This document shows positions 22,855-64,000 of a DNA stretch of 64,000 nt, in pieces (position 1 is the stretch's first letter; each line of letters opens with the position of its first letter). The notes under the pieces are model-generated. The model did no database searches, was not told the DNA's origin, and saw only the letters and a list, made by a program, of their open reading frames with translations. Source of the stretch: Fasciola hepatica (lineage: Eukaryota; Platyhelminthes; Trematoda; Plagiorchiida; Fasciolidae). The stretch covers positions 558,001 to 622,000 of the forward strand of contig CANUEZ040000205.1 in the NCBI GenBank assembly GCA_948099385.1, in the 5' to 3' direction. The position numbers and the translations under genes were made by a program.

Positions 22855-24643
22855 TCCACCTTCCATCTTCATAACGATTCGCTCGTGAACAGTAATAAAG
22901 AATGAATATATATATATGACTGGAAAAAAAAATATTTTTCTGTGTACGAATCGCTTAGGTTAGTATTATTTAGCACTGTACAAACAAAATTGTTGTTTCA
23001 AAATTCAAGCAAATACGGCTTTGACTTGTGGCTGAATGATCGAAGAACCACGACCAAGAAATTGATGTTTACGTCTTACGGCAACGTGGAATACAAAAAG
23101 TCAAGAAAAGAATGTATACCAAAGATAAGGTTACCTACAAGTAATTAGCAGATACGTATCTTCTATCTGGCTTCAGGTACCGACTTCAGAGCGAAATTTT
23201 GGGCATTTCACTGTGCTGAAGTAACATCAGTTATTGAATTCCCCGGCTATCTCGTTGAGAACGTCTCTCATACATCGACATTTGTCAATAATTAGTAAGT
23301 AAGATGTTCAGGGCCTGACTACAGTTCTATTTATCAGGGATCTGTTTTGCATAATGCCACTGACTGCACTTAATCGCACTGGAAACACCACAACCAAATT
23401 TAATTTTTGTCAAAATATGATTCGTCATGCTGCTCCAACTCTCAACTCACAACTGAAAACCATGAATGATAGGTACAGCTGGTTAATTCTTGTTGGGAAT
23501 CAGTAGCAATGCACATCCACCAAATCCCCACGGGGACTCGAACCGGAGATGAATGATTGTGGGGTCCTAATATTGTGATACTCTTGCATATCGTTCAGTA
23601 TTCTCGATTTGGCACGTGAATCAGCAAATCTCACAAATAGTGGTACATGAAACAAACAGTGGAAACACTGAGGATACTTTTTAGCCCATATGAGTCAGCA
23701 ATATTTATGCTTTTTTAAGACTGTTTTTAAAAGAGGCAACCCGTTTGAAACGACTGTTCTTGTCTTCGCCTACACAGCCTCCCCAAAAGCCAGCGGCTTT
23801 TGTTATTCTGGAAGGGCAATCGCGCTTGTTAAAAATGAATATTCCGCAGTACCTGAACCTGGATTTCTTGCCCAAATTCGTTAAGTTTAGTCTTACCGAA
23901 ATATTGCGCGAGAATGCAATTTCGGAATGGATTCATTACACTGAACCTAGTGTCTTTCTTTTTGACGAAGTACTTGTCACCACAGCCTAAATGGAACTGG
24001 TGGATAATATCTGAGGCTTCTCTATCAATACAACAGTCAGACTGCTCTCTGAAGCTTAATCTTGTAGTGGTCTGCACTATGTGTAATTGGGCTGCCAAAT
24101 ATTTTCTGCCCAGTGCACATCTTTAGTTGTGACCATAATTTTGAAATTGTAGTCACTGTTTGTGGGAACGAATAAAATGAGTTGTTGACTTTCGGCCGTG
24201 GATGCGGGCTCCATTTTGCAACGTGGTTCTCGATGAGCTTTTCCAGATAACCATTGACTGTAGGGAATTCCTCTTATGTGATCACAATTACAGGTCATCT
24301 AGCTGCATGGGTAAGTTTTCTGACACAACCAGGTTTTAAAAGCAACCGGGGTGAAACTGAAAACTGCTCACAACTTCAGTCGTATTTTGCTTCTCTATGA
24401 TTGGCTTCTTGTAATGTGCCATCCAAATGCTTTCCGAATAAATTTCAATAAAAAGAAAATCTAGAGTGGATTGTTTTCTCAGGGCCAAGATAAATTACGA
24501 TGTACAGAACCCCTAATATTTTGAACTGGAATAAACGGTCAACATTTGAAATCATTAGGATGTTCTAAATAAACCATTTGTGCAACGGAAACTAGCTCAT
24601 TCGACGGGCCAGCTTTTCTGATCATTCCCAGGAAAGTATCTCT
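22855..24643. other. Intervening sequence between inverted R and module Q copy B
   Basis: I find no second copy of this segment in the window, but its right part may belong to the duplication, because copy A is cut off by the window start. It contains a solitary Sm-alpha-like SINE relic at 23440-23560. Open frames up to 89 codons are present with no recognisable product. Confidence 0.7.
23440..23560 (-). repeat. Solitary Sm-alpha-like SINE relic with B box and dead hammerhead
   Basis: On the minus strand, 23544-23534 reads GGTTCGAGTCC, a perfect RNA polymerase III B box. Downstream of it comes a segment that aligns base for base with the satellite monomers: GTGCATTG, then a damaged CTGATGA box, a stem-loop with CCCAACAAG, and AGCTGTAC. 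The conserved catalytic boxes are mutated (CTACTGA and TAAC), so no ribozyme activity is expected. It lacks the 5-bp duplication that almost all satellite monomers carry. The order B box then hammerhead is that of the schistosome Sm-alpha retroposons, as I know the family. Confidence 0.65.
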
Positions 24644-42264: not shown

Positions 42265-44620
42265 GGCGATGTTAACGGACGCTAATTCAGGTTTCAAATC
42301 TCTACTAGGATAGCGCAATTGGAACACACAAACATATTCCGAAAGCAACATTCAGTCATCATTCAACGGGTTCTCATCGCTCTCATAGGAGATGAATTTA
42401 TTCACCTCCTCGATGGTGATTTGTATCAGTGTTTTAAGGAATACTTTGCGGGTGACAGGATCTAAATTGGTATTTTTCAACTGTGAACATCCTAAAGGTG
42501 TCTCCGGATTAGTTAAACTCATCTTGCAGGGAAATTTAACGACTTAGTCACAGTTCGGCTACCTACTCTTGCGTAGCGAAATGTGATTTTACCATGGTTA
42601 TGGTGCCCGATGTAAACTGCCCTTCATACTGTGCTGACTGCTTCTTGTGCTTGGGCATACTCCAGGTCGTTATTATTATTTAGTCAAGCCTCATTAATTA
42701 CTAGTCGATCACACTATCTGTCGATCGAACTTAATTTCTTGTACGTAAAATCATATTGCTATCCCGATGATTTACTCAGCTGCTTACGTGACCGTTTGCT
42801 TGCTTGCCTGCATTCCCGTCGGCTACGTCCGGTTTGTGTCTACTTTTATCCAAATAATGAATACAAAATCATTACATGTTCGAACAATAATATTAAAGTA
42901 AAAAACATGTGACGCAGAAGAGAATTGGGTTTATCACTCAATGACATACCTAGAATAAACAAGTCATCATCCGAAAAGTTCTCTACACATAAAAATTCCG
43001 CAAACCCACTAAAATTACCACCGTTTGCGTAGGACGTCATGGCATTGGGTAAATTGTATATTCTCGTCTCATTCAGCAGACTAATTAATAAGTCGCTCTA
43101 TCTGCAGATATGCTTGTTAGCATGGTTACGAAGCCTTTTACCACATATCTGACGGAGAATTAAGGTGAACCTTTGGTAAATGGTAAATCACCCACAATTC
43201 TATGAATCAGAGTCAGGAATCGTATTAGGAAGTTAATTTGACTGCAGTTTTATATCAATAGCTCAGTTGTATTGCTCTCGGGGACAATTTTTGCGTTTGA
43301 AAATAGTAGATGTGGAACATGTAGTTTTTACACCATGTACTCGCATAAACACAAACCCACTGTGAATGTGGTCAGTAAGATAGGAGGCATGCAAGATGGT
43401 GGTGACGTAATCGAATGAGTTAGTTAGCAGTTTGTCGTGGTCTTACGACCAAGTGAGTAAGTTCCGTGGATCAGCATAGCTGTTCGCGCTAGATCATGCC
43501 TAAATGTCAACACCAAGCAAACCTACGTGTAAGTGTGAGAGGGACTTTGATTAAATGTCAGCTTAGTGTGCGGGACTGTTTAGGCCAATCATAACGGTTG
43601 TTTAGATGACGAGAGAACCAATTGTATGCAAACACTCCACAAGCTTTACCGTCAGCAAGAAGTATCAACCGGAGCTCACTGTCCGATATGCCTCCACACC
43701 ATAGTCACCTTTTGCCAAGACTACACGTTTCTTCGATTTAACCATGTCACCATGTCAAATTCGTAGATGAAAACAATGGCATTTGATTTTCAATATTAAA
43801 GGGTTCCATGTACAGTCACTTTACTATCATAACTCGCTACAGATGATCATAACATGAACGAGTGATCGGAGCTGCTTATAATATTATCAGGCCTCAAAAA
43901 TGACATACGGATTAGGGGTGTGATACGAAATGCAGGCAAGGATCGGAATCCAGACGACTGTTTATGGATCCTCCAATAATAGCCTAATCTTATGGCCATT
44001 CGTGAGAAAGCGAAAAGTCATAGTCAAAAGGAACAATGATGCCCTCAGTAGTGAACAAATAAGTTTGTTTTTTCACAATGCAATCTTCTGTACAGATAGT
44101 GTATATACCCAAAGCATAGTTTTTTTATCATTTCGTTTAGCAAGGAGTACCAGTGAGTATTTTTTCACAAGCATTCAATTTGTATTTTGATATGATGATG
44201 TCCGCAGTAGTGAGTTTTCATTTGCATTCATCCAAATGGTGTGGGAGGAGCCTGTAGCCTGTTCACTGCCAAGAGGTTCTGAGTATTATGCAAAAAGCCA
44301 GAAAATTAAGTCACTTCCCTTCGAAGAAATTGTTTCAGCAGACTGAATAATGATACTATGTATGATTATTAATTTGTGAAATAATTGGCAGTATATCTTC
44401 CGGAGAGAAGCAGGTTCAGCGTAATATACTGAACAAGTCACTTAGCTGTTTAAGTCATTCTCGACTAGTAAGATGTAAAACAATTTGTGTATATTTAATA
44501 TAATTTATCATGACGGGCGCTGACTGAGTTACTCCAAATTACGTTGAAAAAAAAAAGTGAAACCGATGAATTTAGGTGAACATATTAGCATAGATGCAAC
44601 TTTTGAAGAACCGAAATTCG

Positions 44621-44744
44621 TGTCTATTTTATATGACAGGGGCATTTGATTCAGTCGACCACGAAGTTCTATAAATTTGTATAATCTGGGGCTCGCACCA
44701 GAGAAATGTATTTCACATTTTAAATTTTTGTATCCGAAAAGCAA
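44621..44744 (+). pseudogene. Non-LTR retrotransposon reverse transcriptase fragment, decayed
   Basis: Translation from 44621 gives CLFYMTGAFDSVDHEVL followed by a stop. This matches the region around reverse transcriptase motif A of RTE/CR1-like elements, typically (F/L)(V/I)DF.(G/A)AFDSVD.EVLW. Shifting frame after EVL gives LYNLGLAPEKCISHFKFLY, matching the following GxPxKxI...LY segment of the same domain. The catalytic Asp expected two residues after Phe appears as Tyr, and there is both a stop and a frameshift, so the fragment is dead. Homology to the satellite begins immediately afterwards, at CAACAACCGG. Confidence 0.72.
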
Positions 44745-45044
44745 CAACAACCGGTGAACCATTGTGAATCGAACAACTTAACAACACAAGGCTATCCGGG
44801 ATGGCTCTCAACGCTTTGTTCAACATCTTCACTACATGATATAGCACCCTTCCCAAACTCGCTTTCAATGGTAAGAACCAGCTTCGCGCACACCGATCCA
44901 CTCCTATGATGGATGACGTCTCTGTACGGGCCTAAGTACAACCAACGCATTCCCAAATGAACAACCTACACAGCTTCCTTATTATGCATGCATTTGATTA
45001 GTAGTAGATTAGATTAGATTAGATTAGATTAGATTAGATTAGAT
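44745..45044 (+). repeat. Truncated first satellite monomer
   Basis: This copy begins in the middle of the monomer (CAACAACCGGTGAACC) and lacks the hammerhead-containing half. Its sequence then follows the satellite consensus to the (GATTA)n tract at about 45005-45044. Upstream, in place of the missing half, it has reverse transcriptase sequence, so this may be the ancestral or junction unit. Confidence 0.88.
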
Positions 45045-45104
45045 TTGTATAATATGATTGATCATGCAGCTTGAACGCTCAACTGAGCATTGAAATCCAT
45101 GGAA

Positions 45105-45154
45105 GCACTGTACAGCTGATTCATCCTTGTTGGGACTCGACTCATCAGCAGTGC
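45105..45154 (-). ncRNA. Hammerhead-derived motif, majority (GAAT) form, representative
   Basis: Minus strand: GCACTG, then CTGATGA, a stem-loop, GAAT, CAGCTGTA and CAGTGC. GCACTG/CAGTGC gives a perfect 6-bp stem I. The universally conserved A that follows GAA (position 15.1) is T here, which opposes T at 16.1, so cleavage is expected to be weak or absent. The same form recurs in most of the 43 monomers at the same place. Confidence 0.7.
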
Positions 45155-45949
45155 ACATCGACCGAGCCCACACGGGCATTCCAACAACCGGGGAACCAGT
45201 GTGAATCGAACAACTTAACAACACAAGGCTATCCGCGACGGCTCTCAACGCTTTGTTCAACATCTACACTACATGATATAGCACCCTTCCCAAACTCGCT
45301 TTGAATGGTAACAACCAGCTTCGCGCACACCGATCCACTCCTATGATGGATGACTTCTCTGTAGGGGCCTAAGTACAACCAACGCATTCCCAAATGAACA
45401 ACCTACACAGCTTCCTTACTATGCATGCAATTGATTAGTTGTACGAGATAAGTTTAGATTAGATAAGATTTGTATAATATGATTGATCATGCAGCTTGAA
45501 TGCTCAACTGAGCATTGAAATCCATGGAAGCACTGTACAGCTGATTCATCCTTGTTGGGACTCGACTCATCAGCAGTGCATATCGACCGAGCCCACACGG
45601 GCACTCCAACAACCGGTGAACCATTGTGAATCGAACAACTTAACAACACAAGGCTATCCGGGATGGCTCTCAACGCTTTGTTCAACATCCACACTACATG
45701 ATATAGCACCCTTCCCAAACTCGCTTTGAATGGTAAGAACCAGCTTCGCGCACACCGATCGACTCCTATGATGGATGACTTCTCAGTAGGGGCCTAAGTA
45801 CAACCAACGCATTCCCAAATGAACAACCTACACAGCTTCCTTACTATGCATGCAATTGATTAATAGCACGAGATTACATTAGATTAGATTTGTATAATAT
45901 GATTGATCATGCAGCTTGAACGCTCAACTGAGCATTGAAATGCATGGAA

Positions 45950-45999
45950 GCACTGTACAGCTGTTTCATCCTCTAAGGGACTCGACTCATCAGCAGTGC
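45950..45999 (-). ncRNA. Hammerhead ribozyme motif, GAAA form, monomer 3
   Basis: All conserved elements are present on the minus strand: stem I GCACTG/CAGTGC (6 bp), CTGATGA, stem II GTC...GAT, GAAA, and a minimal stem III in CAGCTG. The cleavage triplet is GTA, with cleavage expected just before CAGTGC. The tiny stem III (2-3 bp, 2-nt loop) resembles Sm-alpha and newt satellite ribozymes, which often work as dimers. The loop of stem II carries the CTTAGA variant. A 5-bp duplication follows CTGATGA: pairing can use the first GTC (13-nt loop) or the second (6-nt loop plus a 5-nt bulge). Confidence 0.68.
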
Positions 46000-48517
46000 A
46001 CATCGACCGAGCCCCCACGGCCACTCAAACAACCGGTGAACCATTGTGAATCGAACAACCTAATAAGACAAGGCTATCGGGCATGGCTCACATAGCTTTG
46101 CACCACATCTACACTACATGATATAGCACCCTTCCCAAACTCGCTTCAAATTTGAATGGTAAGAACCAGCTTCGCGCACACCGATCCACTCCTATGATGG
46201 ATGAATTCTCTGTAGGGGCCTAAGTACAACCGACGCATTCCCAAATGAACAATCTACACAGCTTCCTTACTATGCATGCAATTGATTAGTAGTACGAGAT
46301 TAGATTAGATTAGATTAGATTAGATTAGATGAGATTAGATTAGATTTGTATAATATGATTGACCATGCAGCTTGAACACTCAACTGAGCATTGAAATCCA
46401 TGGAAGCACTGTACAGCTGATTCATCCTTGTTGGGACTCGACTCATTAGCAGTGCACATCGACCGAGCCCACACGGGCACTCCAACAACCGGTGAACCAT
46501 TGTGAATCGAACAACTTAACAACACAAGGCTATCCGCGATGGCTCTCAACGCTTTGTTCAACATCTACATTACATGATATAGCACCCTTCCCAAACTCGC
46601 TTCAAATTTGAATGGTAAGAAACAACTTCGCGCACACCGATCCACTCCTATGATGGATGACTTCTCTGTACGGGCCTAAGTACAACCAACGCATTCCCAA
46701 ATGAACAACCTACACAGCTTCCAAACCATGCATGCAATTGATTAGTAGTACGGGATTAGATTAGATTAGATTAGATTAGATTAGATTAGATTTGTATAAT
46801 ATGATTGATCATGCAGCTTGAACGCTCAGCTGAGCATTGAACTCCATGGAAGCACTGTACAGCTGATTCATCCTTGTTGGGACTCGACTCATCAGCAGTG
46901 CACATCGACCGAGCCCACACGCGCACTCCAACAACCGGTGAACCATTGTGAATCGAACAACTTAACAACACAAGGCTATCCGGGATGGCTCTCAACGCTT
47001 TGTTCAACATCTACACTACATGATATAGCACCCTTCCCAAACTCGCTTCAAATTTGAATGGTAAGAACCAGCTTCGCGCACACCGATCCACTCCTATGAT
47101 GGATGACTTCCCTGTACGGGCCGAAGTACAACCAACGCATTCCCAAATGAACAACCTACACAGCTTCCTTACTATGCATGCAATTGATTGGTAGTAGGAG
47201 ATTACATTAGATTAGATTAGATTTGTATAATATGATTGATCATGCAGCTTGAACGCTCAACTGAGCATTGAAATGCATGGAAGCACTGTACAGCTGATTC
47301 ATCCTTGTTGGGACTCGACTCATCAGCAGTGCACATCGACCGAGGCCACACGAGCACTCCAGCAACCGGTGAACCATTGTGAATCGAACAACTTAACAAC
47401 ACAAGGCTATCCGCGATGGCTCTCAACGCTTTGTTCAACATCTACACTACATGATATAGCACCCTTCCCATACTCGCTTCAAATTTGAATGGTAAGAACT
47501 AGCTTCGCGCACACCGATCCACTCCTATGATGGATGACTTCTCTGTAGGGGCCTAAGTACAACCAACGCATTCCCAAATGAACAACCTACACAGCTTCCT
47601 TACTATGCATGCAATTGATTAGTAGTACGAGATTAGATTAGATTAGATTAGATTAGATTAGATTTGTATAATATGATTGATCATGCAGCTTGAACGCTCA
47701 ACTGAGCATTGAAATGCATGGTAGGACTGTACAGCTGATTCATCCTTGTTGGGACTCGACTCATCAGCAGTGCACATCGACCGAGCCCACACGCGCACTC
47801 CAACAACCGGTGAAACATTGTGAATCGAACAACTTAACAACACAAGGCTATCCGGGATGGCTCTCAACGCTTTGTTCAACATCTACACTACATGATATAG
47901 CACTCTTCCCAAACTCGGTTTGAATAGTAAGAACCAGCTTCGCGCACACCGATCCACTCCTATGATGGATGACTTCTCTGTAGAGGCCTACGTACAACCA
48001 ACGCATTTCGAAATGAACAACCTACACAGCTTCCTTACTATGCATGCAATTGATTAGTAGTACGAGATTAGATTAGATTAGATAAGTTTAGATTTGTATA
48101 ATATGATTGATCATGCAGCTTGAACGCTCAACTGAGCATTGAAATGCATGGAAGGACTGTACAGCTGATTCATCCTTGCTGGGACTCGACTCATCAGCAG
48201 TGCACATCGACCGAGCCCACACGCGCACTCCAACAACCGGTGAACCATTGTGAATCGAACAACTTAACAACACAAGGCTATCCGGGATGGCTCTTAAGGC
48301 TTTGTTCAACATCCACACTACATGATATAGCACCCTTCCCAAACTCGATTTCAATGGTAAGAACCAGCATCGCGCACACCGATCCACTCCTATGATGGAT
48401 GACTTCTCTGTACGGGCCTAATTACAACCAACGCATTCCCAAATGAACAACCTACACAGCTTCCTTACTATGCATGCAATTGATTAGTAGTAGGAGATTA
48501 GATTAGATTAGATTAGA

Positions 48518-50748
48518 TTTGTATAATATGATTGATCATGCAGCTTGAACGCTCAACTGAGCATTGAAATGCATGGAAGCACTGTACAGCTGATTCATCC
48601 TTGTTGGGACTCGACTCATCAGCAGTGCACATCGACCGAGGCCACACGAGCACTCCAGCAACCGGTGAACCATTGTGAATCGAACAACTTAACAACACAA
48701 GGCTATCCGGGATGGCTCTCAACGCTTTGTTCAACATCTACATTACATGATATAGCACCCTTCCCAAACTCGCTTCAAATTTGAATGGTAAGAACCAGCT
48801 TCGCGCACACCGATCCACTCCTATGATGGATGACTTCTCTGTAGGGGCCTAAGTACAACCAACGCATTCCCAAATGAACAACCTACACAGCTTCCTTACT
48901 ATGCATGCAATTGATTAGTAGTACGAGATTAGATTAGATTAGATTAGATTAGATTAGATTAGATTAGATTAGATTAGATTAGAATATATTAGATTTGTAT
49001 AATATGATTGATCATGCAGCTTGAACGCTCAACTGAGCATTGAAATGCATGGAAGCACTGTACAGCTGATTCATCCTTGTTGGGACTCGACTCATCAGCA
49101 GTGCACATCGACCGTGCCCACACAGGCACTCCAACAACCGGTGAACCATTGTGAATCGAACAACTTAACAACACAAGGCTATCCGGCATGGATCACATAG
49201 CTTTGCACCACATCTACACTACATGATATAGCACCCTTCCCAAACTCGCTTCAAATTTGAATGGTAAGAACTAGCTTCGCGCACACCGATCCACTCCTAT
49301 GATGGATGACTTCTCTGTAGGGGCCTAAGTACAACCAACGCATTCCCAAATGAACAACCTACACAGCTTCCTTACTATGCATGCAATTGATTAGCAGTAC
49401 GAGATTAGATTAGATTAGATTAGATTAGATTAGATTTGTATAATATGATTGATCATGCAGCTTGAACGCTCAACTGAGCATTGAAATGCATGGAAGCACT
49501 GTACAGCTGATTCATCCTCCAAGGGACTCGACTCATCAGCAGTGCACATCGACCGAGCCCACACGCGCACTCCAACAACCGGTGAACCATTGTGAATCGA
49601 ACAACTTAACAACACAAGGCTATCCGGGATGGCTCTCAACGCTTTGTTCAACATCTACACTACATGAAATTGCACCCTTCCTAAACTCGCTTCAAATTTG
49701 AATGGAAAGAACCAGCTTCGCGCACACCGATCCACTCCTATGATGGATGACTTCTCTGTACGGGCCGAAGTACAACCAACGCATTCCCAAATGAACAACC
49801 TACACAGCTTCCTTACAATGCATGCAATTGATTAGTAGTACGAGATTAGATTAGATTAGATTAGATTAGATTTCTATAATATGATTGATCATGCAGCTTG
49901 AACGCTCAACTGAGCATTGAAATGCATGGAAGCACTGTACAGCTGATTCATCCTTTTAGGGACTGGACTCAACTGCAGTGCACATCGACCGAGCCCACAC
50001 GGGCACTCCAACAACCGGTGAACCATTGTGAATCGAACAACTTAACAACACAAGGCTATCCGCGATGGCTCTCAACGCTTTGTTCAACATCTACACTACA
50101 TGATATAGCACCCTTCCCAAACTCGCTTCAATTTTGAATGGTAAGAACCAGCTTCGCGCACACCGATCCACTCCTATGATGGATGACTTCTCTGTAGGGG
50201 CCTAATTACAACCAACGCATTCCCAAATGAACAACCTACACAGCTTCCTTACTATGCATGCAATTGATTAGTAGTACGAGATTAGATTAGATTAGATTAG
50301 ATTAGATAAGTTTAGTTTTGTATAATATGATTGATCATGCAGCTTGAACGCTCAACTGAGCATTGAAATCCATGGAAGCACTGTACAGCTGATTCATCCT
50401 TGTTGGGACTCGACTCATCAGCAGTGCACATCGACCGAGCCCACACGCGCACTCCAACAACCGGTGAACCATTGTGAATCGAACAACTTAACAACACAAG
50501 GCTATCCGGGATGGCTCTCAACGCTTTGTTCAACATCTACACTACATGATATAGCACCCTTCCCAAACTCGCTTCAAATTTGAATGGTAAGAACCAGCTT
50601 CGCGCACACCGATCCACTCCTATGATGGATGACTTCTCAGTAGGGGCCTAAGTACAACCAACGCATTCCCAAATGAACAACCTACACAGCTTCCTTACTA
50701 TGCATGCAATTGATTAGTAGTAGGAGATTAGATTAGATTAGACTAGAT
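48518..50748 (+). repeat. Five-monomer higher-order repeat, unit 1
   Basis: Monomers at 48518, 48994, 49436, 49871 and 50317 correspond in order to those at 50749, 51225, 51667, 52102 and 52547, at a constant offset of 2231 (2230 for the last). Shared private variants include ACACGAGCACTCCAGC in the first, CGGCATGGATCACATAG and a very long (GATTA)n in the second, and GGGACTGGACTCA in the fourth. Confidence 0.88.
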
Positions 50749-52992
50749 TTGTATAATATGATTGATCATGCAGCTTGAACGCTCAACTGAGCATTGAAAT
50801 GCATGGGAGCACTGTACAGCTGATTCATCCTCCAAGGGACTCGACTCATCAGCAGTGCACATCGACCGAGGCTACACGAGCACTCCAGCAACCGGTGAAC
50901 CATTGTGAATCGAACAACTTAACAACACAAGGCTATCCGGGATGGCTCTCAACGCTTTGTTCAACATCTACATTACATGATATAGCACCCTTCCCAAACT
51001 CGCTTCAAATTTGAATGGTAAGAACCAGCTTCGCGCACACCGATCCACTCCTATGATGGATGACTTCTCTGTAGGGGCCTAAGTACAACCAACGCATTCC
51101 CAAATGAACAATCTACACAGCTTCCTTACTATGCATGCAATTGATTAGTAGTACGAGATTAGATTAGATTCGATTAGATTAGATTAGTTTAGATTAGATT
51201 AGATTAGATTAGATTAGATTAGATTTGTATAATATGATTGATCATGCAGCTTGAACGCTCAACTGAGCATTGAAATGCATGGAAGCACTGTACAGCTGAT
51301 TCATGCTTGTTGGGACTCGACTCATCAGCAGTGCACATCGACCGAGCCCACACAGGCACTCCAACAACCGGTGAACCATTGTGAATCGAACAACTTAACA
51401 ACACAAGGCTATCCGGCATGGATCACATAGCTTTGCACCACATCTACACTACATGATATAGCACCCTTCCCAAACTCGCTTCAAATTTGAATGGTAAGAA
51501 CCAGCTTCGCGCACACCGATCCACTCCTATGATGGATGACTTCTCTGTACGGGCCGAAGTACAACCAACGCATTCCCAAATGAACAACCTACACAGCTTC
51601 CTTACTATGCATGCAATTGATTAGTAGTACGAGATTAGATTAGATTAGATTAGATTAGATTAGATTTGTATAATATGATTGATCATGCAGCTTGAACGGT
51701 CAACTGAGCATTGAAATGCATGGAAGCACTGTACAGCTGATTCATCCTTGTTGGGACTCGACTCATCAGAAGTGCACATCGACCGAGCCCACACGCGCAC
51801 TCCAACAACCGGTGAACCATTGTGAATCGAACAACTTAACAACACAAGGCTATCCGGGATGGCTCTCAACGCTTTGTTCAACATCTACACTACATGATAT
51901 AGCACCCTTCCCAAACTCGCTTCAAATTTGAATGGTAAGAACCAGCTTCGCGCACACCGATCCACTCCTATGATGGATGACTTCTCTGTACGGGCCGAAG
52001 TACAACCAACGCATTCCCAAATGAACAACCTACACAGCTTCCTTACAATGCATGCAATTGATTAGTAGTACGAGATTAGATTCTATTAAATTAGATTAGA
52101 TTTGTATAATATGATTGATCATGCAGCTTGAACGCTCAACTGAGCATTGAAATGCATGGAAGCACTGTACAGCTGATTCATCCTTTTAGGGACTGGACTC
52201 ACCTGCAGTGCACATCGACCGAGCCCACACGCGCACTCCAACAACCGGTGAACCATTGTGAATCGAACAATTTAACAACACAAGGCTATCCGCGATGGCT
52301 CTCAACGCTTTGTTCAACATCTACACTACATGATATAGCACCCTTCCCAAACTCGCTTCAAATTTGAATGGTAAGAACCAGCTTCGCGCACACCGATCCA
52401 CTCCTATGATGGATGACTTCTCTGTACGGGCCTAAGTATAACCAACGCATTCCCAAATGAACAATCTACACAGCTTCCTTACTATGCATGCAATTGATTA
52501 GTAGTAGGAGATTAGATTAGATTAGATTAGATTAGATAAGTTTAGATTTGTATAATATGATTGATCATGCAGCTTGAACGCTCAACTGAGCATTGAAATC
52601 CATGGAAGCACTGTACAGCTGATTCATCCTTGTTGGGACTCGACTCATCAGCAGTGCACATCGACCGAGCCCACACGGGCATTCCAACAAACGGTGAACC
52701 ATTGTGAATCGAACAACTTAACAACACAAGGCTATCCGGGATGGCTCTTAACGCTTTGTTCAACATCTACACTACATGATATAGCACCCTTCCCAAACTC
52801 GCTTCAAATTTGAATGGTAAGAACCAGCTTCGCGCACACCGATCCACTCCTATGATGGATGACTTCTCTGTAGGGGCCTAAGTACAACCAACGCATTCCC
52901 AAATGAACAACCTACACAGCTTCCTTACTATGCATGCAATTGATTAGTAGTACGAGATTAGATTAGATTAGATTAGATTAGATAAGTTTAGT
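50749..52992 (+). repeat. Five-monomer higher-order repeat, unit 2
   Basis: Second copy of the five-monomer block, adjacent to the first. Differences include the 51667 monomer, which carries CATCAGAAGTGC and AACGGTCAACTG, variants otherwise seen in the monomer at 61467. This points to exchange with a distant part of the array. Confidence 0.87.
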
Positions 52993-53053
52993 TTTGTATA
53001 ATATGATTGATCATGCAGCTTGAACGCTCAACTGAGCATTGAAATCCATGGAA

Positions 53054-53103
53054 GCACTGTACAGCTGTTTCATCCTTGTTGGGACTCGACTCATCAGCAG
53101 TGC
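53054..53103 (-). ncRNA. Hammerhead ribozyme motif, GAAA form, monomer 19
   Basis: It has the intact boxes CTGATGA and GAAA, perfect stem I and the GTA cleavage triplet on the minus strand. Here the GAAA box is combined with the majority CAACAA loop of stem II. It therefore differs from the majority form essentially at the one base that repairs position 15.1. Confidence 0.66.
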
Positions 53104-54326
53104 ACATCGACCGAGCCCACACGCGCACTCCAACAACCGGTGAACCATTGTGAATCGAACAACTTAACAAAACAAGGCTATCCGGGATGGCTCTCAACGC
53201 TTTGTTCAACATCTACACTACATGAAATTGCACCCTTCCCAAACTCGCTTCAAATTTGAATGGTAAGAACCAGCTTCGCGCACACCGATCCCCTCCTATG
53301 ATGGATGACTTCTCTGTACGGGCCGAAGTACAACCAACGCATTCCCAAATGAACAACCTACACAGCTTCCTTACAATGCATGCAATTGATTAGTAGTACG
53401 AGATTAGATTAGATTAGATAAGTTTAGATTTGTATAATATGATTGATCATGCAGCTTGAACGCTCAACTGAGCATTGAAATGCAAGGAAGCACTGTACAG
53501 CTGATTCATCCTTGTTGGGACTCGACTCATCAGCAGTGCACATCGACCGAGCCCCCACGGGCACTCCAACAACCGGTGAACCATTGTGAATCGAACAACT
53601 TAACAACACAAGGCTATCCGGGATGGCTCTCAACGCTTTGTTCAACATCTACACTACATGATATAGCACTCTTCCCAAACTCGCTTCAAATTTCAATGGT
53701 AAGAACCAGCTTCGCGCACACCGATCCACTCCTATGATGGACGACTTCTCTGTAGGGGCCTAAGTATAACCAACGCATTCCCAAATGAACAATCTACACA
53801 GCTTCCTTACTATGCATGCAATTGATTAGTAGTACGAGATTAGATTAGATTAGATTAGATTAGATAAATTTAGTTTTGTATAATATGATTGATCATGCAG
53901 CTTGAACGCTCAACTGAGCATTGAAATCCATGCAAGCACTCACTGTACAGCTGATTCATCCTTGTTGGGACTCGACTCATCAGCAGTGCACATCGACCGA
54001 GCCCACACGGGCATTCCAACAACCGGTGAACCATTGTGAATCGAACAACTTAACAACACAAGGCTATCCGGGATGGCTCTCAACGCTTTGTTCAACATCC
54101 ACACTACATGATATTGCAACCTTCCCAAACTTGCTTCAAATTTGAATGGAAAGAACCAGCTTCGCGCACACCGATCCACTCCTATGATGGATGACTTCTC
54201 TGTACGGGCCTAAGTACAACCAACGCATTCCCAAATGAACAACCTACACAGCTTCCTCACTATGCATGCAATTGATTAGTAGTACGAGATTAGATTATAT
54301 TAGATTAGATTAGATTAGATTAGATT

Positions 54327-55673
54327 TTTATAATATGATTGATCATGCAGCTTGAACGCTCAACTGAGCATTGAAATGCATGGAAGCACTGTACAGCTGA
54401 TTCATCCTTGTTGGGACTCGACTCATCAGCAGTGCACATCGACCGAGGCCACACGCGCACTCCAACAACCGTTGAACCATTGTGAATCGAACAACTTAAC
54501 AACACAAGGCTATCCGGGATGGCTCACATAGCTTTGCACAACATGTACACTACATGTTAAGGCACCCTTCCCAAACTGGCTTCAAATTTGAATGGTAAGA
54601 ACCAGCTTCGCGCACACCGATCCACTCCTATGATGGATGACTTCTCTGTAGGGGCCTAAGTTCAACCAACGCATTCCCAAATGAACAACCTACACAGCTT
54701 CCTTACTATGCATGCAATTGATTAGTAGTACGAGATTAGATTAGATTAGATTAGATTAGATTAGATTAGATTAGATTTGTATAATATGATTGATCATGCA
54801 GCTTGAACGCTCAAGTGAACATTGAAATGCATGGAAGCACTGTACAGGTGATTCATCTTTGTTGGTACTCGACTCATCAGCAGTGCACATCGATCGAGCC
54901 CACACGCGCACTCCAACAACCGGTGAACCATTGTGAATCGAACAACTTAACAACACAAGGCTATCCGGGATGGCTCTCAACGCTTTGTTCAACATCTACA
55001 CTACATGATATAGCACTCTTCCGAAACTCGCTTTGAATGGTATGATCCAGGTTCGCGCACACCGATCCACTCCTATGATGGATGACTTCTCTGTAGAGGC
55101 CTCAGTACAACCAACGCATTCCCAAATGAACAATCTACACAGCTTTCTTACTATGCATGCAATTGATTAGTAGTACGGGATTAGATTAGATTAGATTAGA
55201 TTAGATTAGATTAGATTAGATTAGATTAGATTTGTATAATATGATTGATCATGCAGCTTGAACACTCAACTGAGCATTGAAATGCATGGAAGCACTGTAC
55301 AGCTGTTTCATCCTCTAAGGGACTCGACTCATCAGCAGTGCACATCGACCGAGCCCCCACGGGCACTCCAACAACCGTTGAACCATTGTGAATCGAACAA
55401 CTTAACAACACAAGGCTATCCGGGATGGCTCTCAACGCTTTGTTAAACATCTACACTACATGATATAGCACCCTTCCCAAACTCGCTTCAAATTTCAATG
55501 GTAAGAACCAGCTTCGCGCACACCGATCCACTCCTATGATGGATGACTTCTCTGTAGGGGCCTGAATACAACCAACGCATTCCCAAATGAACAATCTACA
55601 CAGCTTCCTTACTATGCATGCAAATGATTAGTAGTACGAGATTAGATTAGATTAGATTAGATTAGATTAGATT
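54327..55673 (+). repeat. Three-monomer higher-order repeat, unit 1
   Basis: Monomers 54327, 54776 and 55231 correspond to 55674, 56123 and 56568 (offset 1347, then 1337). Private variants are TACATGTTAAGGCACC, CAAGTGAACATTG with TTGTTGGTACTCG, and CTCTAAGGG with GAAA in the ribozyme. Confidence 0.87.
55292..55341 (-). ncRNA. Hammerhead ribozyme motif, GAAA form, monomer 24
   Basis: Same architecture and same stem II loop (CTTAGA) as the motif at 45950-45999. It lies in the third monomer of the first 3-unit higher-order repeat. Confidence 0.67.
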
Positions 55674-57009
55674 TGTATAATATGATTGATCATGCAGCTT
55701 GAACGCTCAACTGAGCATTGAAATGCATGGAAGCACTGTACAGCTGATTCATCCTTGTTGGGACTCGACTCATCAGCAGTGCACATCGACCGAGGCCACA
55801 CGCGCACTCCAACAACCGTTGAACCATTGTGAATCGAACAACTTAACAACACAAGGCTATCCGGGATGGCTCACATAGCTTTGCACCACATGTACACTAC
55901 ATGTTAAGGCACCCTTCCCAAACTGGCTTCAAATTTGAATGGTAAGAACCAGCTTCGCGCACACCGATCCACTCCTATGATGGATGACTTCTCTGTAGGG
56001 GCCTAAGTACAACCAACGCATTCCCAAATGAACAACCTACACAGCTTCCTTACTATGCATGCAATTGATTAGTAGTACGAGATTAGATTAGATTAGATTA
56101 GATTAGATTAGATTAGATTAGATTTGTATAATATGATTGATCATGCAGCTTGAACGCTCAAGTGAACATTGAAATCCATGGAAGCACTGTACAGGAGATT
56201 CATCTTTGTTGGTACTCGACTCATCAGCAGTGCACATCGATCGAGCCCACACGCGCACTCCAACAACCGGTGAACCATTGTGAATCGAACAACTTACCAA
56301 CACAAGGCTATCCGGGATGGCTCTCAACGCTTTGTTCAACATCTACACTACATGATATAGCACTCTTCCGAAACTCGCTTTGAATGGTATGAACCAGGTT
56401 CGCGCACACCGATCCACTCCTATGATGGATGACTTCTCTGTAGAGGCCTCAGTACAACCAACGCATTCACAAATGAACAATCTACACAGCTTCCTTTCTA
56501 TGCATGCAATTGATTAGTAGAAGGAGATTAGATTAGATTAGATTAGATTAGATTATATTAGATTAGATTTGTATAATATGATTGATCATGCAGCTTGAAC
56601 ACTCAACTGAGCATTGAAATGCATGGAAGCACTGTACAGCTGTTTCATCCTCTAAGGGACTCGATTCATCAGCAGTCCACATCGACCGAGCAACGACGGG
56701 GACTCCAACAACCGTTGAACCATTGTGAATCGAACAACTTAACAACACAAGGCTATCCGGGATGGCTCTCAACGCTTTGTTCAAAATCTACACTACATGA
56801 TATGGCACCCTTCCCAAACTCGCTTCAAATTTCAATGGTAAGAACCAGCTTCGCGCACACCGATCCACTCCTATGATGGATGACTTCTCTGTACGGGCCG
56901 AAGTACAACCAACGCATTCCCAAATGAACAACCTACACAGCTTCCTTACTATGCATGCAATTGATTAGTAGTACGAGATTAGATTAGATTAGATTAGATT
57001 AGATTAGAT
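55674..57009 (+). repeat. Three-monomer higher-order repeat, unit 2
   Basis: Second copy of the three-monomer block. It differs by scattered substitutions, including the stem I damage in the ribozyme of its last monomer. Confidence 0.86.
56629..56678 (-). ncRNA. Hammerhead motif, GAAA form but stem I damaged, monomer 27
   Basis: GAAA and the GTA triplet are kept. However, one stem I strand has changed (plus strand CAGTCC instead of CAGTGC), so one pair near the middle of the stem is lost. The base after CTGATGA is also altered (A instead of G). It is the higher-order counterpart of 55292-55341 and shows decay after duplication. Confidence 0.6.
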
Positions 57010-59231
57010 TTCTATAATATGATTGATCATGCAGCTTGAGCGCTCAACTGAGCATTGAAATCCATGGAAGCACTGTACAGCTGATTCATCCATGTTCGGA
57101 CTCGACTCATCAGCAGTGCACATCGACCGAGGCTACACGAGCACTCCAGCAACCGGTGAACCATTGTGAATCGAACAACTTTACAACTCAATGCTATCCC
57201 GGTTTTCTCACATAGATTTGCACCACATTTACACTACATGATATAGCACCCTTCCCAAACTCGCTTCAAATTTGAATGGTAAGAACCAGCTTCGCGCACA
57301 CCGATCCACTCCTATGATGGATGACTTCTCTGTAGGGGCCTAAGTACAACCAACGCATTCCCAAATGAACAATCTACACAGCTTCCTTACTATGCATGCA
57401 ATTGATTAGTAGTACGAGATTAGATTAGATTAGATTAGATTAGATTTGATTTGTATAATATGATTGATCATGCAGCTTGAACGCTCAACTGAGCATTGAA
57501 ATGCAAGGAAGGACTGTACAGCTGATTCATCCTTGTTGGGACTCGACTCATCAGCAGTGCACATCGACCGAGCCCACACGGGCACTCCACTAACCGGTGA
57601 ACCATTGTGAATCGAACAACTTAACAACACAAGGCTATCCGGGATGGCTCACATAGCTTTGCACCACATCTACACTACATGATATAGCACCCTTCCCAAA
57701 CTCGCTTCAAATTTGAATGGTAAGAACCAGCTTCGCGCACACCGATCCACTCCTATGACGGATGACTTCTCTGTACGGGCCTAAGTACAACCAACGCATT
57801 CCCAAATGAACAACCTACACAGCTTCCTTACTATGCATGCAATTGATTAATAGTACGAGATTAGATTAGATTAGATTAGATTAGATTTGTATAATATGAT
57901 TGATCATGCAGCTTGAACGCTCAACTGAGCATTGAAATGCATGGAAGCACTGTACAGCTGATTCATCCTTGTTGGGACTCGACTCATCAGCAGTGCACAT
58001 CGACCGAGCCCACACGCGCACTCCAACAACCGGTGAACCATTGTGAATCGAACAATTTAACAACACAAGGCTATCCGCGATGGCTCTCAACGCTTTGTTC
58101 AACATCTACACTACATGATATAGCACCCTTCCCAAACTCGCTTCAAATTTGAATGGTAAGAACCAGCTTCGCGCACACCGATCCACTCCTATGATGGATG
58201 ACTTCTCTGTAGGGGCCTAAGTACAACCAACGCATTCCCAAATGAACAACCTACACAGCTTCCTTACTATGCATGCAATTGATTAGTAGTACGAGATTAG
58301 ATTAGATTAGATTAGATTAGATTAGATTAGATTAGATTTGTATAATATGATTGATCATGCAGCTTGAGCGCTCAACTGAGCATTGAAATCCATGCAAGCA
58401 CTCACTGTACAGCTGATTCATCCTTGTTGGGACTCGACTCATCAGCAGTGCACATCGACCGAGCCCCCACGGGCACTCCAACAACCGGTGAACCATTGTG
58501 AATCGAACAATTTAACAACACAAGGCTATCCGCGATGGCTCTCAACGCTTTGTTCAACATCTACACTACATGATATAGCACCCTTCCCAAACTCGCTTCA
58601 AATTTGAATGGTAAGAACCAGCTTCGCGCACACCGATCCACTCCTATGATGGATGACTTCTCTGTAGGGGCCTAAGTACAACCAACGCATTCCCAAATGA
58701 ACAATCTACACAGCTTCCTTACTATGCATGCAAATGATTAGTAGTACGAGATTAGATTAGATTAGATTAGATAAGATTAGATTAGATTTGTATAATATGA
58801 TTGATCATGCAGCTTGAACGCTCAACTGAGCATTGAAATGCATGGAAGCACTCACTGTACAGCTGATTCATCCTTGTTGGGACTCGACTCATCTGCAGTG
58901 CACATCGACCGAGCCCACACGGGCACTCCAACAACCGGTGAACCATTGTGAATCGAACAACTTAACAACACAAGGCTATCCGGGATGGCTCTCAACGCAT
59001 TGTTCAACATCTACACTACATGATATAGCACCCTTCCCAAACTCGCTTCAATTTTGAATGGTAAGAACCGGTGTCGCGCACACCGATCCTCTCCTATGAT
59101 GGATGACTTCTCTGTATGGGCCTAAGTACAACCAACGCATTCCCAAATGAACAACCTACACAGCTTTCTTACTATGCATGCAATTGATTAGTAGTAGGAG
59201 ATTAGATTAGATTAGATTAGATTAGATTAGA

Positions 59232-61907
59232 TTTGTATAATATGATTGATCATGCAGCTTGAGCGCTCAACTGAGCATTGAAATGCAAGGAAGGACTGTA
59301 CAGCTGATTCATCCTTGTTCGGACTCGACTCATCAGCAGTGCACATCGACCGAGCCCACACGCGCACTCCAACAACCGGTGAATCATTGTGAATCGAACA
59401 ATTTAACAACACAAGGCTATCCGGGATGTCTCACATAGCTTTGCACCACATCTACACTACATCACATAGCACCCTTCCCAAACTCGCTTCAAATTTGAAT
59501 GGTAAGAACCAGCTTCGCGCACACCGATCGACTCCTATGATGGATGACTTCTCTGTAGGGGCCTAAGTACAACCAACGCATTCCCAAATGAACAACCTAC
59601 ACAGCTTCCTTACTATGCATGCAATTGATTAGTAGTACGAGATTAGATTAGATTAGATTAGATTAGATTAGATGAGATTAGATTAGATTTGTATAATATG
59701 ATTGACCATGCAGCTTGAGCGCTCAACTGAGCATTGAAATGCATGGAAGCACTGTACAGCTGTTTCATCCTCTAAGGGACTCGACTCATCAGCAGTGCAC
59801 ATCGACCGAGCCCCCACGGGCAATCCAACAACCGGTGAACCATTGTGAATCGAACAACTTACCAACACAAGGCTATCCCGGATGGCTCTCAACGCTTTGT
59901 TCAACATCTACACTACATGATATAGCACCCTTCCCAAACTCGCTTCAAATTTGAATGGTAAGAACCGGCTTCGCGCACACCGATCCTCTCCTTCGATGGA
60001 TGACTTCTCTGTAGGGGCCTAAGTACAACCAACGCATTCCCAAATGAACAACCTACACAGCTTTCTTACTATGCATGCAATTGATTAGAAGTACGAGATT
60101 AGATTAGATTAGATTAGATTAGATTAGATTAGATTTGTATAATATGATTGATCATGCAGCTTGAACGCTCAACTGAGCATTGAAATGCATGGAAGCACTG
60201 TACAGCTGATTCATCCTTGTTGGGACTCGACTCATCAGCAGTGCACATCGACCGAGCCCACACGCGCACTTCAACAACCGGTGAACCATTGTGAATCGAA
60301 CAACTTAACAACACATAGCTATCCGGGATTGCTCTCAACGCTTTGTTCAACATCTGCACTACATGATATAGCACCCTTCCCAAACTCGCTTCAAATTTGA
60401 ATGGTAAGAACCAGCTTCGCGCACACCGATCCACTCCTATGATGGATGACTTCTCTGTAGGGGCCGAAGTACAACCAACGCATTCCCAAATGAACAACCT
60501 ACACAGCTTTCTTACTATGCATGCAATTGATTAGTAGTACGAGATTAGATTAGATTAGATTAGATAAGATTAGATTAGATTTGTATAATATGATTGATCA
60601 TGCAGCTTGAACGCTCAACTGAGCATTGAAATGCATGGAAGCACTGTACAGCTGATTCATCCTTGCTGGGACTCGACTCATCAGCAGTGCACATCGACCG
60701 AGCCCACACGGGCAATCCAACAACCACTGAACCATTGTGAATCGAACAACTTACCAACACAAGGCTAACCGGGATGGCTCTCAACGCTTTGTTCAACATC
60801 TACACTACATGATATAGCACCCTTCCCAAACTCGCTTCAAATTTGAATGGTACGAACCGGCTTCGCGCACACCGATCCTCTCCTTCGATGGATGACTTCT
60901 CTGTAGGGGCCTAAGTACAACCAACGCATTCCCAAATGAACAACCTACACAGCTTCCTTACTATGCATGCAGTTGATTAGTAGTACGAGATTAGATTAGA
61001 TTAGATTAGATTAGATTAGATTAGATTAGATTTCTATAATATGATTGATCATGCAGCTTGAACACTCAACTGAGCATTGAAATGCATGGAAGCACTGTAC
61101 AGCTGATTCATCCTTTTTGGGACTCGACTCATCAGCAGTGCACATCGACCGAGCCCACACGCGCACTCCAACAACCGGTGAACCATTGTGAATCGAACAA
61201 CTTAACAACACAAGGCTATCCGGGATGGCTCTCAACACTTTGTTCAACATCTACACTACATGATAAAGCACCCTTCCCAAACTCGCTTCAAATTTGAATG
61301 GTAAGAACCAGCTTCGCGCACACCGATCCACTCCTATGATGGATGAATTCTCTGTAGGGGCCTAAGTACAACCAACGCATTCCCAAATGAACAACCTACA
61401 CAGCTTCCTTACAATGCATGCAATTGATTAGTAGTACGAGATTATATTAGATTAGATTAGATTAGATTCGTATAATATGATTGATCATGCAGCTTGAACG
61501 GTCAACTGAGCATTGAAATGCATGGAAGCACTGTACAGCTGATTCATCCTTGTTGGGACTCGACTCATCAGAAGTGCACATCGACCGAGCCCACACGCGC
61601 ACTCCAACAACCGGTGAACCATTGTGAATCGAACAACCTAACAACACAAGGCTATCCGGGATGGCTCTCAACGCTTTGTTCAACATCTACACTACATGAT
61701 ATAGCACCCTTCCCAAACTCGCTTCAAATTCGAATGGTGAGAACCAGCTTCGCGCAAACCGATCGACTCTTTCGATGGATGACTTCTCTGTAGGGGCCTA
61801 AGTACAACCAACGCATTCCCAAATGAACAACCTACACAGCTTTCTTACTATGCATGCAATTGATTAGTAGTACGAGATTAGATTAGATTAGATTAGATTA
61901 GATTAGA
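59232..61907 (+). repeat. Six-monomer higher-order repeat, unit 1
   Basis: Monomers 59232, 59688, 60135, 60581, 61032 and 61467 form a block of 2676 bp that restarts at 61908. Private variants include GCAAGGAAGGACTG with TCACATAGC in the first and CTCTAAGGG with GGGCAATCC in the second. Confidence 0.85.
59749..59798 (-). ncRNA. Hammerhead ribozyme motif, GAAA form, monomer 34
   Basis: All boxes are intact, with the CTTAGA loop. It sits in the second unit of the 6-monomer higher-order repeat, and its counterpart one repeat later is at 62425-62474. Confidence 0.67.
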
Positions 61908-62424
61908 TTTGTATAATATGATTGATCATGCAGCTTGAGCGCTCAACTGAGCATTGAAATGCAAGGAAGGACTGTACAGCTGATTCATCCTTGTTGGGAC
62001 TCGACTCATCAGCAGTGCACATCGACCGAGCCCACACGCGCACTCCAACAACCGGTGAATCATTGTGAATCGAACAATTTAACAACACAAGGCTATCCGG
62101 GATGTCTCACATAGCTTTGCACCACATCTACACTACATCACATAGCACCCTTCCCAAACTCGCTTCAAATTTGAATGGTAAGAACCAGCTTCGCGCACAC
62201 CGATCCACTCCTATGATGGATGACTTCTCTGTAGGGGCCTAAGTACAACCAACGCATTCCCAAATGAACAACCTACACAGCTTCCTTACTATGCATGCAA
62301 TTGATTAGTAGTACGAGATTAGATTATATTAGATTAGATTAGATTATATGAGATTAGATTAGATTTGTATAATATGATTGACCATGCAGCTTGAGCGCTC
62401 AACTGAGCATTGAAATGCATGGAA

Positions 62425-62474
62425 GCACTGTACAGCTGTTTCATCCTCTAAGGGACTCGACTCATCAGCAGTGC
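62425..62474 (-). ncRNA. Hammerhead ribozyme motif, GAAA form, monomer 40
   Basis: Identical in layout to 59749-59798, from which it appears to derive by block duplication (offset 2676). CTGATGA, GAAA, stem I and the GTA triplet are all present. Confidence 0.67.
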
Positions 62475-62870
62475 ACATCGACCGAGCCCCCACGGGCAAT
62501 CCAACAACCGGTGAACCATTGTGAATCGAAAAACTTACCAACACAAGGCTATCCGCGATGGCTCTCAACGCTTTGTTCAACATCTACACTACATGATATA
62601 GCACCCTTCCCAAACTCGCTTCAAATTTGAATGGTAAGAACCGGCTTCGCGCACACCGATCCTCTCCTTCGATGGATGACTTCTCTGTAGGGGCCTAAGT
62701 ACAACCAACGCATTCCCAAATGAACAACCTACACAGCTTTCTTACTATGCATGCAATTGATTAGAAGTACGAGATTAGATTAGATTAGATTAGATTAGAT
62801 TAGATTAGATTTGTATAATATGATTGATCATGCAGCTTGAACGCTCAACTGAGCATTGAAATTCATGGAA

Positions 62871-62920
62871 GCACTGTACAGCTGTTTCATCCTTGTTGGG
62901 ACTCGACTCATCAGCAGTGC
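62871..62920 (-). ncRNA. Hammerhead ribozyme motif, GAAA form, monomer 41
   Basis: The boxes are intact and the loop is the majority CAACAA. Its counterpart one higher-order repeat earlier (monomer at 60135) has GAAT, so the GAAA state here arose or was copied in after the block duplication. Confidence 0.66.
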
Positions 62921-64000
62921 ACATCGACCGAGCCCACACGCGCACTCCAACAACCGGTGAACCATTGTGAATCGAACAACTTAACAACACAAGGCTATCC
63001 GGGATGGCTCTCAACGCTTTGTTCAACATCTACACTACATGATATAGCACCCTTCCCAAACTCGCTTCAAATTTGAATGGTAAGAACCCGCTTCGCGCAC
63101 ACCGATCCACTCCTATGATGGATGACTTCTCTGTACGGGCCTAAGTACAACCAACGCATTCCCAAATGAACAACCTACACAGCTTCCTTACTATGCATGC
63201 AATTGATTAGTAGTAGGAGATTAGATTAGATTAGATTAGATTAGATTAGATTCGTATAATATGATTGATCATGCAGCTTGAACGCTCAACTGAGCATTGA
63301 AATGCATGGAAGCACTGTACAGCTGATTCATCCTCCAAGGGACCAGACTCATCAGCAGTGCACATCGACCGAGCCCACACGCGCACTCCAACAACCGGTG
63401 AACCATTGTGAATCGAACAATTTAACAACACAAGGCTATCCGCGATGGCTCTCAACGCTTTGTTCAACATCTACACTACATGATATAGCACCCTTCCCAA
63501 ACTCGCTTCAAATTCGAATGGTGAGAACCAGCTTCGCGCAAACCGATCGAATCTTTCGATGGATGACTTCTCTGTACGGGCCGAAGTACAACCAACGCAT
63601 TCCCAAATGAACAGCCTACACAGCTTTCTTACTATGCATGCAATTGATTAGTAGTACGAGATTAGATTAGATTAGATTAGATTAGATTAGATTTCTATAA
63701 TATGATTGATCATGCAGCTTGAACACTCAACTGAGCATTGAAATGCATGGAAGCACTGTACAGCTGATTCATCCTTGTTGGGACTCGACTCATCAGCAGT
63801 GCACATCGACCGAGCCCACACGCGCACTCCAACAACCGGTGAACCATTGTGAATCGAACAACTTAACAACACAAGGCTATCCGGGATGGCTCTCAACACT
63901 TTGTTCGACATCTACACTACATGATATAGCACCCTTCCCAAACTCGCTTCAAATTTGAATGGTAAGAACCAGCTTCGCGCACACCGATCAACTCCTATGA

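Follow-up and report, generated by a model that had tools for sequence, protein, structure and literature searches.

INTRODUCTION

In the published passages drawn on here, the schistosome element Sm-alpha combines a tRNA-Gln-derived sequence with a hammerhead, and blastn gave approximately 38,500 hammerhead candidates in S. mansoni (PMC2770079); among the schistosome W-elements, the hammerhead is active in some families and mutated in others (PMC8490949), and a full tRNA is described in schistosome hammerhead repeats (PMC4918200). Tandem repeats with type I hammerheads in animals are described as non-LTR (long terminal repeat) retrozymes that give circular RNA, with platyhelminths named, and the hammerhead repeats of animals count as mobile elements (PMC7229834). 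Repeats with cryptic mutant hammerheads are mentioned among rejected candidates (PMC3088659). Here we analyse a 64,000-nt stretch of the Fasciola hepatica genome (contig CANUEZ040000205.1, positions 558,001 to 622,000 of the forward strand; henceforth the window, numbered from its first letter), the right-hand part of which is a 441-bp satellite with a hammerhead-derived motif in its units.

We put a probability of roughly 0.8 on the reading that this satellite is an amplified and decayed offshoot of a tRNA-headed hammerhead non-autonomous retroelement, Sm-alpha-like and retrozyme-like, of the same genome. Since the anatomy of Sm-alpha, W-elements and retrozymes has been published, the kind of element is already known. 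Among the titles and abstract beginnings listed from the open-licence literature, none concerned this repeat or a five-nucleotide duplication at the junction of core and stem II, and the passages covered give no account of how large satellites form from hammerhead repeats or whether the ribozyme then survives.

RESULTS

The window satellite carries a hammerhead-derived motif with five extra bases

Tandem Repeats Finder (TRF) reports a single array with a period of 441 and 91% matches. An earlier note on this DNA had rightly recognised a long minus-strand tandem array and placed its start at 45045; the array begins approximately 300 bases before that point, and extends past the right end of the window. 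With a G+C content of 0.43-0.45 from 46 kb onward, the low-G+C 441-bp tandem unit lies within the 150-450-bp range of retrozymes.

The motif is readable in 43 copies, all on the minus strand, and its descent from a hammerhead, as proposed in the earlier note, holds: the topology is that of type I, with a 6-bp stem I, a short palindromic stem III and a GUA triplet. The seven copies that the note had singled out for their GAAA box were found again at exactly the same positions, six with an unbroken 6-bp stem I and one, at 56629, with GGACTG. The motifs and the array are listed below, with scores against the Rfam type I hammerhead model RF00163 where the copy obtained one.

44745..64000, minus strand: 441-bp satellite array (TRF; 43.4 copies; continues beyond the window)
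45950..45999, minus strand: GAAA motif with CTGATGA, unbroken stem I, CTTAGA loop II and GAGTC duplication (RF00163, 24.5 bits)
53054..53103, minus strand: GAAA motif with CAACAA loop II and GAGTC duplication (RF00163, 25.0 bits)
55292..55341, minus strand: GAAA motif with CTTAGA loop and GAGTC duplication (RF00163, 24.5 bits)
56629..56678, minus strand: GAAA motif with broken stem I (GGACTG) and ATC for GTC after the core (motif reading)
59749..59798, minus strand: GAAA motif with CTTAGA loop and GAGTC duplication (not listed separately by Rfam)
62425..62474, minus strand: GAAA motif with CTTAGA loop and GAGTC duplication (not listed separately by Rfam)
62871..62920, minus strand: GAAA motif with CAACAA loop and GAGTC duplication (RF00163, 25.0 bits)
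47283..47332, minus strand: example copy of the majority type, GAAT (A15.1 changed), with CTGATGA and stem I intact and GAGTC duplication

What does not stand is the claim of a hammerhead in each unit. From end to end of stem I the motif measures 50 nt in 43/43 copies, against 45 positions in the Rfam model, and in every copy five extra bases separate the CUGAUGA core from the GUCC/GGAU stem II. These bases are an exact duplication of GAGTC (CTGAT-GAGTC-GAGTC-C) in 37 copies and have the same length with substitutions in the other six; in alignments the insert falls on a gap in the 400-bp relatives described below. Stem II directly adjoins the core in none of the 43 copies, although a 3-bp adjoining register is possible. 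The core itself, CTGATGA, is intact in 39 copies and agrees with CUGANGA. Because 36/43 copies have GAAT in place of GAAA, which is kept in seven, A15.1 is removed from them and the A15.1-U16.1 pair with it.

RF00163 has a gathering cut-off of 34 bits (29 bits for the tRNA model), and no match in the window reaches it. The covariance search over the array that the earlier note had proposed thus yields nothing above threshold; with lax settings (E up to 10; 44600-64000) four of the 43 copies are matched at 24.5-25.0 bits (E 0.03-0.05), and the model aligns the extra bases into an insert of stem and loop II. Chance resemblance was considered and rejected: where dispersed relatives of this unit have the motif free of the insert, scores rise to as much as 40 bits.

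The whole unit is collinear with a tRNA-headed 400-bp repeat

The window itself holds a dispersed relative, found by sequence search with 70.5% identity over 156 columns (E 5e-15), and a putative counterpart of its head within the satellite:

23414..23561, minus strand: dispersed relative that has the perfect B box GGTTCGAGTCC and, downstream of it, a degenerate hammerhead lacking the five-nucleotide duplication
47342..47418 (approximate), minus strand: putative decayed remnant of a tRNA-like head, 5' of the motif at 47283 and in one unit with it, without the B box GGTTCGAGTCC seen in the relatives (by alignment and analogy with the 400-bp unit)

Among the best candidates of a DNA search with the relative were 400-401-bp arrays on contigs C47, C13 and C165 of the same 1.5-Gb genome (C-numbers denote contigs, L-numbers loci), together with dispersed copies. 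In the 400-bp unit a tRNA-like head, whose B box is perfect, is followed approximately 10 nt downstream by a type I hammerhead and then by a body carrying an AATCT-type tail. Its motif in the arrays reads CTGATGA-TTCC-CAACAA-GGAT-GAAA-CAGCTGTA-CAGTGC, in which the core is intact and the basal position of stem II is a U.U mismatch, described as the best tolerated mismatch at that place (PMC3088659). The 400-bp arrays lie under the RF00163 cut-off, at 24.4-28.8 bits in L055, L058 and L059 and at 26.1 and 28.8 bits in L099 and L100. At the very start of C13 the intact-core form with U.U is present in three of eight motifs, four having a further change in stem II and one a deletion.

Rfam tRNA scores of the 400-bp unit heads reach 36.9 bits, above the cut-off of 29. 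ARAGORN calls a tRNA in all six units of L058 and three in L055, with Val or Met identity; it calls none in the window, L059, L060, L063, L065, L070 or L074, eight loci with relatives being uncalled. Among the 20 loci fetched around RF00163 places (see below), the Rfam tRNA cut-off is reached in L063 and L074, with scores below it in L065, L066 and L070.

The 441-bp unit is collinear from end to end with three 400-bp units at 86.5-88% identity (88% to C13 over 400 columns), and the alignment displays what is particular to it: five nucleotides are inserted, the AATCT repeats have expanded and the B box is destroyed. The satellite consensus has no GGTTCGANTCC, the string GTTCGATTC remains, and no tRNA is called in it. 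The earlier note had taken the unit for a hammerhead fused to other sequence; given collinearity over the whole length, nothing foreign has been fused to the ribozyme, and the satellite is the element. TRF lists 36 AGATT-type runs within the array, which by comparison of the units are an expanded form of the tail of the 400-bp relative, for example:

47630..47664, plus strand: tandem AGATT pentamers, AATCT when read on the minus strand (TRF)

TTTT is absent from the minus-strand satellite consensus, which would allow RNA polymerase III to read through and is weak evidence. A possible A box, TAGTGTAGATG, which together with GTTCGATTC might have formed a new satellite promoter, was seen by eye only and set aside as a likely coincidence.

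Consensus differences between satellite and relative are often exchanges of C and G: 24/52 for the 441-bp unit against C47, compared with 46/363 of the polymorphic site-variants within the satellite (Fisher p 8e-8). For the 423-bp satellite described below, such exchanges make up 21/80 of the differences to the 400-bp unit, compared with 16/145 (p 0.005).

Dispersed relatives carry canonical hammerheads with a covarying stem I

A whole-genome search with RF00163 scored 74 of 288,504 first-look candidates and listed 61 places, of which 37 reach the cut-off, the best with 40.0 bits. Fourteen control genomes were searched in the same way; 11 give signals, none above the cut-off. Of 20 such places that were fetched with their surroundings, 16 show a match to the 400-bp unit (limited to 107 bases in L068), and L077 was left unclassified. 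The remaining three, L062, L076 and L078, form a second repeat family that shares a hammerhead of its own, with a GUC triplet and, by eye, a B-box-like string upstream; stem I is GCACCA in two of the three, stem III in L076 is the palindrome ACTCGAGT, and neither Rfam nor ARAGORN calls a tRNA in them.

Covariation was assessed in 17 motifs, from 15 of the 20 pieces (without L064, L071, L072, L075 and L077) plus L044 and L059. In this set 90.8% of cells pair, against 26-52% in slid structures; 11 cells are changed on both sides, against 2.6 in shuffles, and neither this number nor the covariation score is matched by any of 500 shuffles, although relatedness among the motifs inflates such figures. 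Changes on both sides occur at 8-60 (G-C to A-U and C-G), at 17-53 and 18-52 (between the two hammerhead families) and at 45-48 (stem III). Stem I covaries, and so does an outer stem I, separated from it by a 3x1 internal loop; since the outer stem lies outside the Rfam model, it provides the more independent evidence. It is broken in the consensus of both the 441-bp and the 423-bp satellites. The first two pairs of stem III hold in all 17 canonical rows.

The outer stem also bears on another possible origin of the motif, the Penelope-like elements (PLEs), which carry minimal hammerheads in their pseudo-LTRs. PLE hammerheads have a tiny stem III and the potential to act as dimers, and the tiny stem III seen here, with its dimer potential, resembles them. 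The relatives, on the other hand, have a tRNA-like head with a B box, and their outer stem I with its internal loop is not the minimal form, so that we consider a PLE origin very improbable, no search for PLE proteins having been made. PLE hammerheads are mentioned in PMC7229834.

Most dispersed copies are head-to-head inverted partial dimers: 13 of the 16 family loci match the 400-bp unit in both orientations, in pieces mostly of 645 bases. In two loci, L070 and L074, one of the arms exceeds unit length, and therefore a multimer was copied. The longest strings common to both flanks, counted with no chance control, measure 11 (L074), 13 (L138, partly inside the element), 7 (L070), 6 (L069) and 5 bases (L135). 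The head-to-head arrangement and the flank strings together suggest that reverse transcription was primed on either side of a single target.

The window lies at the edge of a very large array

Probes place the 441-bp satellite at approximately 603-950 kb on C205, at 632 kb-1.0 Mb and 2.4-2.68 Mb on C204, and at 400-661 kb on C229. A 423-bp satellite occupies positions further inside. It shares 79-80% identity with the 400-bp unit and has a different set of core changes (CTCATGA and CAAA); RF00163 finds no match in ten probes of it up to E 10. Probes at 1.5 Mb on C204 and C205 are not satellite. The five array stretches that were fetched in full contain 241 motifs, 237 of 50 nt and four one base shorter, and the duplication-free form CTGANGAGTCCC is not among them. 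GAAA is present in 44 of the 237 50-nt motifs. It is distributed unevenly: the four array-start stretches are mostly GAAT (67/77, 70/82, 24/28 and 19/21), and a stretch further in (C204, 684-699 kb) has GAAA in 22/33. The window covers the edge of an array in whose interior GAAA predominates. GAAT was accordingly dropped as the ancestral form, GAAA being found in the relatives and in most interior probes.

Could the GAAA copies be working minimal type I hammerheads that cut minus-strand read-through transcripts to unit length, perhaps as dimers held by the 8-nt palindrome ACAGCUGU? Core, GAAA, U16-H17 and stem I are kept together in 25 of the 241 motifs, the palindrome is present in most GAAA copies, and dimeric action has been described for newt and axolotl hammerheads (PMC7229834, PMC6155905); the constancy of the first stem III pairs in the canonical relatives points the same way. 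The idea nevertheless appears unlikely to us, given the extra bases beside the core in all window copies, the loss of A15.1 from most of them, a best score 9 bits under the cut-off, and a consensus with a broken outer stem I and no B box.

The 400-bp array on C13 is a more promising candidate than the window for an active hammerhead satellite, even though its motif, too, lies below the Rfam cut-off. This array (L059, L099, L100, L115-L121) spans at least 300 kb by probes: it is 99.0-99.9% identical to the unit in probes from 8 to 300 kb and absent at 500 kb, and GGAT together with GAAA is kept in 15 of 16 probe motifs. An array of that size with those motifs led us to drop the idea that loss of the ribozyme is a condition for large arrays.

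By probes, the order on C204 (0.63-2.68 Mb) is a mirror image: flank, 441-bp satellite, 423-bp satellite, the non-satellite probe, 423-bp satellite, 441-bp satellite, inverted flank. The arrays on C205 and C229 are also involved, and the flanks at all four array starts on the three contigs are 98.8-99.8% identical over 1.2-5.7 kb. The arrangement may represent a palindrome of megabase size, copies from different haplotypes or a fold-back in the assembly.

Folding, variability and the possibility of an active variant

Two registers of stem II are open to the duplicated form: GUC/GAU adjoining the core, with a 13-nt loop, or GUCC/GGAU with five nucleotides after A9. By secondary-structure estimate the latter is the better one in the GAAA form, by 5.7 kcal/mol, and in the GAAT form the minimum is a competing pairing of GCUGAU with AUCAGC. 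Across 236 aligned monomers, many from array edges, variability is 0.085 in the 50-nt motif and 0.025-0.068 in the other 50-nt blocks outside the AATCT region; the motif is the most variable block and therefore gives no sign of purifying selection. Because of the disfavoured folding and the high variability, no cleavage or only very slow cleavage is predicted for the window copies, with real doubt for those with GAAA. The read-through cleavage into approximately 444-nt multiples that the earlier note envisaged would likewise not be favoured: in the satellite consensus the B box is lost and outer stem I is broken, and by the folding model, a weak judge, the insert shifts the favoured stem II away from the core.

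A number of observations weigh against a decayed ribozyme and its derivation. The folding model gives the canonical hammerhead only approximately 6e-5 of the free ensemble; since it disfavours the canonical form too, and contains no tertiary contacts, it is a weak judge. Motif variability comes mostly from loop II, with 0.065 for the core and 0.040 for stems I and II against 0.045 for the rest, and the sample is rich in edge monomers. In the covariation set, no two-sided change is seen in stem II, the first pair of which does not form in 7 of the 17 motifs; by other measures shuffles can equal the data, reaching the number of pairs changed on both sides (4) in 78/500 and of pair types (16) in 348/500. 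Among 35 motifs caught by pattern in 28 probes outside the fully read stretches, 24 have GAAA, 10 GAAT and one CAAA, and the duplication with GAAA has an exact genome-wide count of 16,908 (reversed control 0), a figure possibly inflated because the assembly may hold both haplotypes. On these two counts the core outside the fully read stretches is far from random. The duplication is found on other contigs, both in arrays (C187, C191) and in dispersed copies (L135, L138); the latter have an intact B box and outer stem I, which means that the duplicated form has been mobile. Finally, stems II of two base pairs, and even of one, occur among published hammerheads (PMC3088659).

The copy number, the prevalence of GAAA in the probes, the dispersed duplicated copies and the precedent for very short stems II are also what would be expected if the duplication were a genuine hammerhead variant, pairing GUC/GAU around a 13-nt loop or switching registers, and active enough to spread. 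We hold this to be improbable: the register with the five-nucleotide insert is the favoured one, no compensating change is seen, and satellite amplification alone can produce high copy number, which the possible presence of both haplotypes would inflate further. There is similarly only a slim chance that GAGTC duplication created a new catalytic variant that spread with its tRNA-like head to at least 16,908 copies and was switched off at array edges by the loss of A15.1.

The flank of the array

Directly before the array start, at 44600-44730, lies a fragment that resembles, by eye, a broken non-LTR reverse transcriptase frame. Near-identical open frames of 146 codons at 517-957 and 25160-25600, 24.6 kb apart, mark a duplicated block in the flank. 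Across 1-44700, Rfam returns 39 matches, all under the cut-off and mostly microRNA models on AT microsatellites.

DISCUSSION

In this study we have traced a very large satellite of F. hepatica to a tRNA-headed hammerhead repeat. The window array probably represents the extensive remnant of an already known type of element and not a working ribozyme array. In the history that we propose for the decayed offshoot, the mobile form would be transcribed by RNA polymerase III, its RNA would cleave itself and may circularise, and it would be copied into a tandem arrangement; one duplicated lineage could then have been amplified by recombination into very large arrays in which the ribozyme was no longer kept.

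One genome thus holds a whole series: dispersed canonical tRNA-headed copies, a homogeneous array that by probes extends over at least 300 kb and keeps the core intact, and a pair of very large satellites, each with ribozyme lesions of its own. With these side by side, the question of whether a satellite keeps its ribozyme becomes testable on natural sequences. If the duplicated form were still to cleave, the hammerhead fold would tolerate an insertion at a place thought critical.

The satellite and its relatives share with Sm-alpha/Sj-alpha and the W-elements, as described in the parts of those papers used here (PMC2770079, PMC8490949, PMC4918200), a tRNA-derived head (with a B box in the relatives, putative and decayed in the satellite), a type I hammerhead and a satellite-like arrangement, and like the schistosome elements they include copies both with and without core lesions. 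Loop II of L063, L067 and L068, CAAATA, is the Rfam consensus loop; only this loop was compared, and the likeness to Sm-alpha is otherwise one of anatomy. The units measure 441, 423 and 400 bp, in contrast to the 335 bp of schistosome W36.2 (PMC8490949). Unlike Sm-alpha with its Gln head, the head here is called Val or Met by ARAGORN, the triplet is GUA and not GUC, and the satellite has a five-nucleotide duplication at the junction of core and stem II.

Compared with the metazoan non-LTR retrozymes, again as far as the passages used extend (PMC7229834, PMC7761336), the repeats share tandem units of 150-450 bp, low G+C and type I hammerheads; some dispersed relatives have common flank strings of more than 4 bp, counted with no chance control and candidates for target site duplications, and the 400-bp arrays share with the axolotl retrozyme HHR_Amex2 the U.U mismatch at the base of stem II (PMC7229834). 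They differ from retrozymes in their tRNA-like head. The window copies also fail as bona fide type I hammerheads; the 400-bp units come closer and the dispersed relatives pass. By description, finally, the F. hepatica array resembles newt satellite 2 and Dolichopoda pDo500, each a satellite with a type I hammerhead in its unit.

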